A stretch of 5,859 nt of DNA from a bacterium (GTDB lineage: Bacteria; Blakebacterota; Blakebacteria; Blakebacterales; Blakebacteraceae): contig JALGVQ010000185.1 in NCBI GenBank assembly GCA_025774615.1, positions 1-5,859 on the forward strand. The letters run 5' to 3'. Below are positions 1-5,859 of the stretch, piece after piece. Numbering within the stretch: the first letter of the stretch is position 1; every line of letters begins with the position of its first letter. The notes below the pieces were generated by a model, which did no database searches, was not told where the DNA came from, and saw nothing but the letters and a program-made list of their open reading frames with translations. Position numbers and translations under genes: made by a program.

Positions 1-762
1 GAATATACCGAACCGATGAGATCTCCTGACCATCTGGAAAAACTTCTCAAATCATTCGGCGCCAACATGGAGACCAGGACCACTGGTGGGGGCAGGGGGG
101 AATACACGGTGCTCTACGATCCAGGTATGGCACTGGAGGGCAGAGAAGTCGACATTCCCGGTGATTTTTCAAAGGCTGTCTATCTCATGGTTGCCGCGCT
201 TCTGTTGCCACGCTCAGATCTTACGTTGAAGGGGGTCGGACTGAATCCCGCCCGCAGGGAGGCTCTGAACATCCTCACAAGAATGGGTGGTAAGATCGAG
301 GTTCTCGACCGGCGGACAATTGGTACTGAATCCCGTGGTGATATCCATATCAAGCACTCGAAACTCAAGGGAACGGGAGTATCCGGCAGGACGATTCGCA
401 TGCTGTTTGAGGAACTCACGGCCCTCACAGTGGCGGCGGCATTTGCCGAGGGTGAGACTTATTTCAAGGGGGCCCTTGAACTGCGAATGCCCGCGAGTGA
501 TCGGATTTCGGCACTCATCCACAACCTGAAGGTATTGAACCTTGAAACAGGTGAAGCGCCCGATTGGCTCGTGTTGCTCGTGTTCAGAGGGAAATCACCA
601 CTCGATGGAGGGGTCTTCGACAGTTTCGGTGACTACCGGATCGCGCTGGCGTTCCATGTATGTGCACTGGCCAGCCATGGGGACAGCATGATCCTCAACT
701 ATGAAGTGATTGATCAGTATTGGCCGGGATTTCCTGAGGTAATCGAGATATTGAAGGGGTAG
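1..762 (+). CDS. aroA: 3-phosphoshikimate 1-carboxyvinyltransferase (EPSP synthase) family protein, C-terminal part, with diverged active site
   Basis: The 5' end lies outside the window. The frame is open from base 1, and the ATG at 16 is internal, because the preceding codons read EYTEP, which joins the family's TEP-x-x-S-x-DH motif. About 253 of the usual ~430 residues are present. EPSP synthases join shikimate-3-phosphate and PEP in the cytoplasmic shikimate pathway. Counting from the Met at 16, recognisable blocks are DIPGDFSKA (46-54), GVGLNPAR (73-80), AAAFAEGET (140-148), ASDRI (160-164), SFGDYRIA (203-210) and WPGF (236-239). Compared from memory with the E. coli and B. subtilis enzymes, several active-site positions differ: S197 is K53, D313 is E132, K340 is P159, E341 is A160 and H385 is Y207. 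R344 (R163), D384 (D206) and R386 (R208) are kept. Family membership is secure. Authentic EPSP synthase activity is doubtful, and a neofunctionalised paralogue is possible. The reading frame is intact. The gene converges on the PLP-enzyme gene. Confidence 0.88.
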   Translation, partial: EYTEPMRSPDHLEKLLKSFGANMETRTTGGGRGEYTVLYDPGMALEGREVDIPGDFSKAVYLMVAALLLPRSDLTLKGVGLNPARREALNILTRMGGKIEVLDRRTIGTESRGDIHIKHSKLKGTGVSGRTIRMLFEELTALTVAAAFAEGETYFKGALELRMPASDRISALIHNLKVLNLETGEAPDWLVLLVFRGKSPLDGGVFDSFGDYRIALAFHVCALASHGDSMILNYEVIDQYWPGFPEVIEILKG

Positions 763-790: not shown

Positions 791-824
791 CTGAGGATCC
801 GACTGATAAGGTTCGGACTGTCAG
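791..824. terminator. weak stem-loop in the convergent gap (possible bidirectional terminator)
   Basis: Between two converging genes, TCCGA (798-802) can pair with TCGGA (813-817) around a 10-nt loop. An outer CTGA/TCAG pair (791-794 with 821-824) is separated from it by an imperfect internal loop. The outer arm overlaps the stop codon of the minus-strand gene. There is no T-tract on either side, so this is not a canonical intrinsic terminator. It is reported because it is the only structure seen in the 58-bp gap. Confidence 0.18.
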
Positions 825-2047
825 AGTGAAGCAACCGCCTCGATCAGTCGTTCGATCTCATCCATTGTCGTATAGCAGGCACATCCGGCTCTGATGAATC
901 CATGTTCCAACTGACCGTATCGCTCTGCAATCGTTCGCGCGTAGAAGTTCCCGTTTGTGAGGTAGAGCCCCTCTTTGGCGAGTGCCGTGGTTACATCACC
1001 CGATAGCATCCCCTCAACGGTGAATGAGAGGGTTGGGGTGCGTGGTGTTCCCGGCGCGGGGCCATACAGGGTGACGCGGTCCTGTGCGGCCAGTCCTGCC
1101 CACAATCTGCCGATCAGCTCTGTTCCCCATCCATGGAAGGTATCGAATGCGGAGATCAGGCATTCCCGGCGGGTCGATCCTGTGCCGAGCGATGCGAAAT
1201 ACTCCACGATTGCGCCGGTGCCTGCGATACCCTCGTAATTCAGCGTGCCGGTCTCGAAGCGATCGGGAGCGTTATCGGGAGAGGGGATGAGCTTTGCGAC
1301 ATCGAGTGATTCCAGCCGGTCCTGTCTGGTGTAAAGGAACCCTACGTGGGGGCCGTAGAACTTGTACACCGATCCCGCGAGGAACTCACAGTCGAGGGCC
1401 CTGACATCCACCAGCTGGTGGGGGAGGAGGTGGACCGCGTCCACGAATACCTCGGCGCCAACGGCATGAGCCATCTCGATCGCCCGTCCGGTCTCAATGA
1501 TCGTACCAAGGGCGTTCGAGGCGGCACTTATCGCGAGGAGTTTTGTATTGGAAGTGAGTTTTTCCGCCAGGTCATTCCAGTCGAGAAGGCCGCTGTCGGT
1601 ATCGAACCGGACCCACTTGAGGGTGATGCCCCGTTCCTTCTCCAGCGCCTGCCAGGGAGCGATATTCGCGTGGTGATCGAGCTCGGTGACGACGATCTCA
1701 TCACCGGGGCCGTATTCCCGTCCCAGGGCACGTGAGAGGTGGAACGTGAGGGTCGTCATGTTGGGGCCGAAGGCTATCTCGCTGGTGCCTGCTCCCAGCA
1801 TCTCTGCAACGGCTTCCCGGGCATAGGTGACGACTTTGTCGGTCTCGAGGCTGGTTGGGTAATTCCAGTGCCGATTCGAGTTGTGTGTCAGGAGGTATTC
1901 AGTAACCGCATCACTGACGTGGAGAGGGACCTGAGTCCCTCCCGGACCGTCGAAATACGCAACGGGGATATTGCCCTGCAGTCTTTGAAGGGCCGGAAAA
2001 CTGGAACGAACCTGCTCGACTGTCACAGATGGCTGCATATCAGTCAT
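821..2047 (-). CDS. cysteine desulfurase-like PLP-dependent enzyme (aminotransferase class V, VC1184-like family)
   Basis: This is a cytoplasmic fold-type I PLP enzyme of 408 residues, a full length for the family. Visible elements are FDGPGG (32-37), HHAN with PLP-stacking His (125-128), N178, DAVH with the pyridine-nitrogen Asp D203, and GSVYKFYGPH (225-234) with Schiff-base lysine K229. FETGT-x-x-x-EGIAGT (264-277) follows, and R386 is the likely substrate-carboxylate arginine. The DAVH, YKFYGPH and GNFYA blocks are what I know of the VC1184-like 'cysteine desulfurase-like' group. Aligned by eye to SufS, the persulfide cysteine (C364 in RTGHHCA) falls on Y369, so a classical desulfurase mechanism is not supported. 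C389 and C391 sit next to R386 but at non-equivalent positions. The substrate is unknown. The start at 2047 lies 7 bp after the foldase stop, with a weak AGG (2056-2054) inside and just after that stop codon, which suggests translational coupling. M4 is an alternative start. No isc or suf genes are nearby. Confidence 0.87.
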   Translation of the reverse strand: MTDMQPSVTVEQVRSSFPALQRLQGNIPVAYFDGPGGTQVPLHVSDAVTEYLLTHNSNRHWNYPTSLETDKVVTYAREAVAEMLGAGTSEIAFGPNMTTLTFHLSRALGREYGPGDEIVVTELDHHANIAPWQALEKERGITLKWVRFDTDSGLLDWNDLAEKLTSNTKLLAISAASNALGTIIETGRAIEMAHAVGAEVFVDAVHLLPHQLVDVRALDCEFLAGSVYKFYGPHVGFLYTRQDRLESLDVAKLIPSPDNAPDRFETGTLNYEGIAGTGAIVEYFASLGTGSTRRECLISAFDTFHGWGTELIGRLWAGLAAQDRVTLYGPAPGTPRTPTLSFTVEGMLSGDVTTALAKEGLYLTNGNFYARTIAERYGQLEHGFIRAGCACYTTMDEIERLIEAVASL

Positions 2048-4031: not shown

Positions 4032-4104
4032 ATCGCCGTCCCGAAATGGTACTCTCACCATCCTCCCCGTGGAACCCGTGAATCCAGGAACAGCATTCTG
4101 TCTC

Positions 4105-5859
4105 ATGATAGCGCAACTGTTCAACTGCTTGAATCCAATACGGTTACAGAGATCTGAAGGTGCATCTATCCGACCGGATCACCGCACGTCGCATACTCTT
4201 CTGAGTGGTTTCTTTGCTCTCATAATCTTCCTCGGTACCATATCGACTGCCTCGGGTCAGGGAGAGTCACTCGCGTGGCCGGCCAGGGTGGAAAAGGGCG
4301 TGACATCCTCGTTTGGTGAATGGCGACCGGGACATGTTCATGCGGGCACAGATGTGAAGACATGGGGACGTATAGGCGTTCCGCTTCTGGCAGTCGAGGA
4401 TGGATACATCCAGCGGGTGCGCACCTCACCATGGGGGTATGGCAAGGCGGTCTATCTGAAACTGGATGATGGCCGTCTGGCCGTGTACGCGCACATGGAC
4501 CGATTCACTCCCGAGATAGAGGATCTCATCGTGGATGCACAGCTGGCGGAGCTGCGCTATTCGGTTGATATCTGGCCGGAGACGGATCTCCATCGGGTGG
4601 AGCGGGGCGATATCATCGGATACTCGGGGACGACGGGTTCCTCGGCGCCACATCTCCATTTCGAGCTCAGAGACAGTCAGAACCGGCCGATCAATCCGCT
4701 TCGGAACGGTCTTCAGGCCCCGGATACAACCCCCCCCGTGATCCAGTTTCTTATCTTCAGACCGGTGGGCCCGGAGAGTCGCGTGGAGAAGGATATCCAG
4801 GTCAGACGCTTCGGCCTGACCCCGGCAGGTGGACGGACCTATCACCTGAGAGGTCGTCCGGAGGTTGAAGGGACCATCGCGATCGGCGCGGCGGCATACG
4901 ACCAGATGGATGGTGTCTGGAACCGGTTCAGTCCCTACCGACTGGTGCTGGAGATCGACGGGAATGAGGTCTTCGAGGTCCGGTACGATGAGTTCTCCTA
5001 CCTGCAGTCAGAGCTTATCGCCCTCGATCGCGATTACCGGTACATGATCAGGGAGGGGTCGAGAGCTCATACACTCTATCGTCAGCCGGGAAACGAACTC
5101 ACCTTTTACGGAGACTACGAGCAGGGTGAAGGATATCTCAGAGATTATGGCCCCGGGGTTCATCAGCTGAAGCTGACCATTGCCGACGCCAATGGCAACG
5201 AGTCGGTGGTTGAGGGGGAGGTGCTCTGGAACCGGACACCGCAGATCACACTACTGGTGCCTGAAGGGATGAGTACCGAAGAGAGGGGCGTTCGGATCGT
5301 CGGCGATGTGTCAGATCCCGACTCCGATCCCGTGCACATGATGTTCGAAGTGATGCGCGCCGGTGGGGATGTGGCCGAGAGGAGCAGCCGGCAGGACCGA
5401 TGGACAGCGCTTCCCGATGACGCGGTGATCGCCGATGGTCGCACCTTCGCACTCGATCCAGGTGTCGCGGACAGCCTGCGTTCGCAGGGCGGGTGGCTTG
5501 TAAGGTTCAAGGCCCGTGACAGGTGGGAGAGTGAGGCCGTATCACCACCTCTTTCTCTGGGTGAGGCTGATGTGCTGTTATCTGGTGGATTCTCATTGGC
5601 GGTCGAACGGTATGAGGGCTTCCTGCAGCTCACGGCCAGGACTGGTAATCCCATGCCCGCGCAGGTCGTTTTTACCGTGGATCAGGGGGAACTCGATCCG
5701 GTGACCCTCCCGGGAGTGCCAACCGGCAGGAGAAGTCACGAAGCGATCTATCCTCTGCAGATATCCTCAGAGAACCGGTTACTGGTCACCGCGCGCCTTG
5801 AGACTCCTGGTGGTCGTATCGAAACGGCGTCCGCTGAAGAGAACTATTACTCCCTGCCC
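4105..5859 (+). CDS. exported M23 (LytM-type) metallopeptidase with long C-terminal beta-rich extension, 3' partial
   Basis: The frame is open through the right edge (585 codons visible, no stop), so the gene is 3'-truncated. M23 enzymes are zinc endopeptidases that usually cut peptidoglycan cross-bridges or stem peptides. The zinc and catalytic set is complete: HAGTD (H79, D83), the YAHMD histidine H130, and HLHFE (H183, H185). The DGRLAVYAH and GYSGTTGSSAPHLHFELRD context is typical of LytM domains. An insert of about 29 residues (135-163) follows YAHMDRF. A hydrophobic segment (about 32-46) ending in TASGQ looks like a Sec signal with cleavage near 49-51. From D207 (TTPPV) a beta-rich region continues, including YDEFSY (294-299) and GVHQLKLTIADANGN (351-365), then Ig-like stretches. 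This order matches Bacteroidetes-type M23 proteins I know. The ATG at 4105 is the only nearby ATG, but it gives a long 31-residue n-region and AGGAA lies 14 nt away. TTG 4129 and GTG 4069/4078 are alternatives. It is divergent from the foldase gene. Confidence 0.85.
   Translation, partial: MIAQLFNCLNPIRLQRSEGASIRPDHRTSHTLLSGFFALIIFLGTISTASGQGESLAWPARVEKGVTSSFGEWRPGHVHAGTDVKTWGRIGVPLLAVEDGYIQRVRTSPWGYGKAVYLKLDDGRLAVYAHMDRFTPEIEDLIVDAQLAELRYSVDIWPETDLHRVERGDIIGYSGTTGSSAPHLHFELRDSQNRPINPLRNGLQAPDTTPPVIQFLIFRPVGPESRVEKDIQVRRFGLTPAGGRTYHLRGRPEVEGTIAIGAAAYDQMDGVWNRFSPYRLVLEIDGNEVFEVRYDEFSYLQSELIALDRDYRYMIREGSRAHTLYRQPGNELTFYGDYEQGEGYLRDYGPGVHQLKLTIADANGNESVVEGEVLWNRTPQITLLVPEGMSTEERGVRIVGDVSDPDSDPVHMMFEVMRAGGDVAERSSRQDRWTALPDDAVIADGRTFALDPGVADSLRSQGGWLVRFKARDRWESEAVSPPLSLGEADVLLSGGFSLAVERYEGFLQLTARTGNPMPAQVVFTVDQGELDPVTLPGVPTGRRSHEAIYPLQISSENRLLVTARLETPGGRIETASAEENYYSLP

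Follow-up and report, generated by a model that had tools for sequence, protein, structure and literature searches.

Is a protein that carries the framework of EPSP synthase (AroA), the enzyme that makes aromatic compounds and is targeted by glyphosate, still an EPSP synthase when its active-site residues are replaced? The question is raised by an open frame at one edge of a bacterial contig. The window analysed here is the entire contig (C264, 5859 bases), which belongs to a 3.3 Mb genome that is 82% complete with 1.2% contamination.

An AroA-related frame at the contig edge

The AroA-like frame occupies positions 1–762 of the plus strand. It encodes 253 residues and contains no internal stop, and its stop codon lies at 760–762. 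The gene starts upstream of the contig edge, and its 5' part is off the contig. The protein matches Pfam PF00275 with 127 bits (cut-off 22.8) and the aroA profile TIGR01356 with 143 bits over profile positions 176–412 of 415, in agreement with the initial annotation, which had described an intact frame carrying the C-terminal half of an EPSP synthase. The TIGR01356 score falls under the 287-bit cut-off because only half of the protein is present. The best solved relatives of the protein are all EPSP synthases. Judged by this family homology, the product of 1–762 is an AroA from which the N-terminal half is missing; frame, profile matches, and alignments together describe 253 C-terminal residues of a protein that derives from AroA, has the EPT fold, and has had its catalytic residues replaced.

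The likeness is most evident with class-II-like EPSP synthases, for example those of CP4, Coxiella burnetii, and Bacillus halodurans (PDB 2gg6, 3slh, and 3rmt). These enzymes share the C-terminal fold (Z ~24–25) and the motifs PGDxSxA, GVGLNP, ELR-x-x-x-SDR, GD-x-RIA, and PGF, and they and genomic AroA proteins are ~30–43% identical to the AroA-like protein. MurA, the UDP-GlcNAc enolpyruvyl transferase, belongs to the same fold family (Z ~19–20), but its identity over the aligned part is just 13–17%. An identification as MurA was rejected: the leading sequence matches are all AroA, and the genome has a separate MurA of its own, encoded on contig C178. NikO, the nikkomycin enolpyruvyl transferase (PDB 4fqd), also shares the fold family and acts on a different acceptor; it is 20–21% identical, and a related pathway is not seen here.

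Two side observations concern the relatives themselves. Some AroA relatives (L011, L013, L029, and L083) lie in open frames of 626–719 residues, which suggests fusions with another domain. PDB 4n3p, entitled 'De Novo designed Serine Hydrolase OSH18', is a relative of EPSP synthase by both sequence and fold, and presumably an EPSP synthase served as the design scaffold.

An AlphaFold2 model of the half protein (four sequences) has a mean pLDDT of 72 and a pTM of 0.70. It superimposes on solved EPSP synthases with Z ~24–25, for example over 194 residues at 2.0 Å with 3rmt and over 229 residues at 3.0 Å with 3slh; the modelling is poor at residues 43–54. As a prediction guided by homologues, the model supports a retained fold, short of proving it.

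Downstream, and convergent with the AroA-like gene, lies a gene for a cysteine-desulfurase-like PLP protein of the TIGR01976 (VC1184) type (821–2047, minus strand), which scores above the curated cut-off. The contig also encodes a SurA/PpiD-like protein on the minus strand and an M23-type peptidoglycan peptidase-like protein (4069–5859, plus strand) that runs past the contig end. A similar M23-type gene stands beside a SurA/PpiD-like gene in another genome of the set, G003, too (L051, 2–943, minus strand). After its SurA/PpiD-like gene G003 has different genes. Near the 3' end of the AroA-like gene no promoter or terminator signal is seen.

Because the cysteine-desulfurase-like and SurA/PpiD-like proteins have counterparts in one congener that are 83% and 77% identical, respectively, the contig can be assigned to this lineage. 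This assignment bears on an assembly or binning artefact, in which the first ~800 bases would come from another organism and the pathway context discussed below would not apply. The AroA-like gene does lie at a contig edge, and the contig of the congener breaks off within the flanking aminotransferase gene, short of the junction. The origin of the rest of the contig speaks against such an artefact, as does a GC3 (0.60) near that of the neighbouring genes (0.64–0.68); moreover, foreign origin would leave the replacements themselves unexplained. We consider it improbable.

Replaced and retained residues

In EPSP synthase, the N-terminal lobe together with CP4 R200 or E. coli K340 holds shikimate-3-phosphate (S3P). 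Proton transfer involves D313 and E341, and PEP is held by three arginines, R124, R344, and R386. Residues were compared in an alignment with E. coli K-12 AroA and up to 55 AroA relatives from other genomes. Thirty alignment columns are strict, that is, common to at least 97% of the 55 relatives, and eight of them are changed in the AroA-like protein: R9P, D137E, P140T, K164P, E165A, G180N, H212Y, and S240Y. At six of these columns (R9, D137, K164, E165, H212, and S240, but not P140 and G180) all 55 relatives are identical. When 32 relatives were left out one at a time, 27 broke no common column and five broke one each, compared with 6 of 26 broken by the AroA-like protein. By these counts, the residue losses are more than chance would give.

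The changes fall at the following places. P9 (25–27, plus strand, as for all positions in this section) replaces the arginine of the (T/S)EP-x-x-(S/T)-R-D-H motif, which is present in 55 of 55 relatives. This arginine corresponds to CP4 R200, which we take to be the class-II counterpart of the S3P contact in that segment. E137 (409–411) replaces E. coli D313, which is an aspartate in every one of the 55. P164-A165 (490–495) replaces E. coli K340-E341, a lysine and a glutamate in 55/55. In D211-Y212-R213 (631–639), the equivalents of E. coli D384 and R386 are kept and H385 becomes tyrosine. Y240 (718–720) stands in place of the serine of the S-x-P-x-F motif (serine in all 55), adjoining the position of E. 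coli K411. The equivalent of E. coli R344 is kept as R168 (502–504) in the alignments.

Thus, all five catalytic and S3P- or PEP-contacting residues considered in the C-terminal lobe (CP4 R200 and E. coli D313, K340, E341, and H385) are replaced, by P, E, P, A, and Y, and in this respect the protein is unlike class-II-like EPSP synthases. The PEP-contacting arginines R344 and R386, as well as D384, are present as R168, R213, and D211, and are shared with those enzymes.

Much of this pattern had been read correctly from the letters alone. The exchanges of D313 (409–411), K340 (490–492), E341 (493–495), and H385 (634–636), as well as the retention of R344 (502–504), D384 (631–633), and R386 (637–639), are borne out by the alignments with E. 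coli K-12 AroA and its relatives. The nucleotide positions given at that time hold; the residue numbers do not, being 5 lower than the 137, 164, 165, and 212 of the full frame because they were counted from an internal ATG at nt 16. A proposed pairing of E. coli S197 with 'K53' has to be given up. The lysine at nt 172–174 is K58, and its partner in the alignment is E. coli S245. That position belongs to the PGD-x-S-S-A motif and is serine in 50 of 55 relatives. P140T, G180N, and S240Y are additions of the present analysis, and so is R9P.

The substitutions could have defined a clade, as the initial annotation proposed to check. None of the 55 aligned AroA relatives, drawn from searches of 386 genomes and genome contigs, carries the same replacements, and viral contigs contain no relative of the protein. 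Within this sample, an AroA-like protein with these replacements is so far single.

The shikimate pathway in five genomes

Five genomes (G000–G004), 59–85% complete, were examined: the genome of the contig itself, a congener, two members of the family, and one member of another family. MurA is found in 5/5. In the own genome, the MurA on contig C178 is the only other PF00275 protein, and the congener and the two family members each have one PF00275 protein with a full-length MurA-like match. A second, canonical aroA was looked for in the own genome and not found, nor was the N-terminal half of the AroA-like gene, which would carry the equivalents of K22, S23, R27, R124, and S169–Q171, found elsewhere in it. 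An orthologue was likewise not found in the three nearest genomes, of which the congener is represented by the interrupted contig mentioned above. The term 'paralogue', which had been suggested for the protein, is thus not supported, as no second AroA was found in the genome or in its three nearest relatives, and MurA is the one further homologue.

The genes that would accompany an EPSP synthase are also not detected. AroB, AroE, AroK (shikimate kinase), and AroC were not found in any of the five genomes at their 59–85% completeness, and the same is true of chorismate-binding enzymes. Control genomes were positive for AroK in 12/14, AroB in 11/14, AroC in 14/14, and AroE in 14/14 cases, and of the genomes that carry canonical AroA relatives 52 were tested, all of which have AroC. 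If losses are independent, the probability that a gene carried by all five genomes would escape detection in each of them, incomplete as they are, is ~0.001. Non-homologous replacements of AroK and AroB are known in archaea. As these pathway genes are not found in the five genomes, the AroA-like protein is seemingly left without a supply of substrate or a downstream enzyme, which again sets it apart from class-II-like EPSP synthases. The lineage appears to be without the shikimate pathway, pointing to reliance on aromatic compounds from outside. A partial loss of the shikimate pathway is described in PMC3018139, and the excerpt of that paper makes no mention of an altered AroA.

Could the protein nevertheless be a working EPSP synthase with an altered active site, the other enzymes of the pathway being missed or replaced by unrelated ones? 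The kept C-terminal framework with its R344, D384, and R386 equivalents would fit such an enzyme, and the genome is only 82% complete. However, six residues that are invariant in 55 relatives are replaced, and AroB, AroE, AroK, AroC, and the chorismate-binding families were not found in five genomes by searches that were positive in control genomes. We regard this as very improbable. Because the residues are lost and the pathway partners are undetected, the protein is an orphan descendant of AroA, the sole detectable one in a lineage seemingly without the shikimate pathway, and very unlikely to be an EPSP synthase. We assign a probability of roughly 0.87 to the statement that it is not a working EPSP synthase. 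The earlier view that it is 'not a standard EPSP synthase' is therefore well supported, and the missing AroB, AroE, AroK, and AroC strengthen it.

Selection, decay, and a possible new role

An orphan of this kind could have been co-opted for another task or could be decaying. Several measurements bear on the choice. The terminal branch of the AroA-like protein is slightly the longest of 56 (1.27 vs 1.17; FastTree). Site-rate classes were computed without the AroA-like protein, and branch lengths were then split by class, which gives 0.31, 0.53, 0.86, 1.02, and 1.46 for its branch from slow to fast. The excess is concentrated in the slowest 30 sites, where its branch measures 0.31 and the second longest 0.045. 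It also ranks first, near the others, in the two classes that follow, and in the two fastest it ranks 11 and 23 of 56. A switch of function would give this pattern, and so, equally well, would an ordinary branch plus a uniform relaxed phase of ~0.3 changes per site.

The frame gives a different kind of information. Two insertions (7 and 3 residues), both in frame, are found only in the AroA-like protein, and it has no deletion of its own. In simulations of neutral change that breaks 8/30 strict columns, the frame stays free of stops in 9% of runs, and free of both stops and frameshifts in 0.1–0.7% at assumed indel:substitution ratios of 0.1–0.05. Losses affect 5/9 pocket columns vs 3/21 other strict columns (Fisher one-sided p 0.03), the pocket set being our own choice of contacts. 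Codon bias of the AroA-like gene is weaker (z 3.4) than in three neighbours (8–9.2), which are longer genes.

Decay would mean that aroA came under relaxed or no selection after the pathway was lost, with the frame kept by chance or because the loss is recent. The undetected shikimate genes in five genomes are what this explanation expects, and the slow-site excess of ~0.3 per site, the slightly longest branch, the weaker codon bias, and the loss of a near-invariant glycine are all compatible with it. What it accommodates less well are 759 bases without a stop or frameshift, insertions that occur in frame only, and the clustering of losses in the pocket. We give decay a substantial share, about a one-in-three standing.

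The open frame, the in-frame indels, and the pocket-clustered losses tip the balance slightly towards co-option of the fold and away from early decay, with co-option at about even odds overall. The continued rise of branch lengths from slow to fast sites and the match of the half-protein model to the C-terminal part of solved EPSP synthases speak for co-option as well. Against co-option stand the uniform relaxed phase, which explains the branch lengths just as well, the weaker codon bias and slightly lower GC3, the additional loss of the near-invariant columns G180N and P140T, and the lack of an orthologue in the three nearest genomes, with the congener's contig ending inside the flanking gene. 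As a result, the suggestion of a 'non-catalytic relative under selection to keep its fold' is retained as slightly preferred, with relaxed selection fitting too.

Co-option may have proceeded as follows. The ancestor of the gene is an ordinary class-II-like aroA, and the shikimate pathway is no longer apparent in the lineage. Once shikimate-3-phosphate was lost, selection for EPSP synthase chemistry would have ended. The S3P-contacting arginine, the adjoining lysine and glutamate, the catalytic aspartate, and the histidine were replaced, and the arginine pair (R344 and R386 equivalents, PEP contacts in EPSP synthase) was kept, as would be the C-terminal lobe's fold. The sequences themselves show the ancestry, the replacements, and the retained residues. 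We infer that the protein is made and folded, and that it is not an EPSP synthase and was co-opted for a small phosphorylated or carboxylated ligand. It would act as a binding or regulatory protein or as an enzyme of different chemistry, and would not be an early pseudogene. The C-terminal shares in holding S3P and in proton transfer are gone, and that in holding PEP is kept. If the protein has a task, binding of a PEP-like anion is the simplest one left by the kept residues.

A more far-reaching proposal is that it represents an EPT-fold protein of a new kind, one that descends from AroA and outlived the loss of its pathway by acquiring a new ligand or reaction, with the site for the PEP anion kept and that for shikimate phosphate not. 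We put this forward tentatively, as somewhat doubtful. A search for non-catalytic or orphan EPSP synthases found no such protein reported in the literature searched.

Homology pipelines would label this gene aroA. The organism would then be assumed to carry out one step in making aromatic compounds and to possess a target for glyphosate, and both assumptions are probably wrong. If the gene is kept by selection, it would offer a natural example of the EPSP synthase fold released from its pathway, from which other uses of a PEP-binding fold could be learned.
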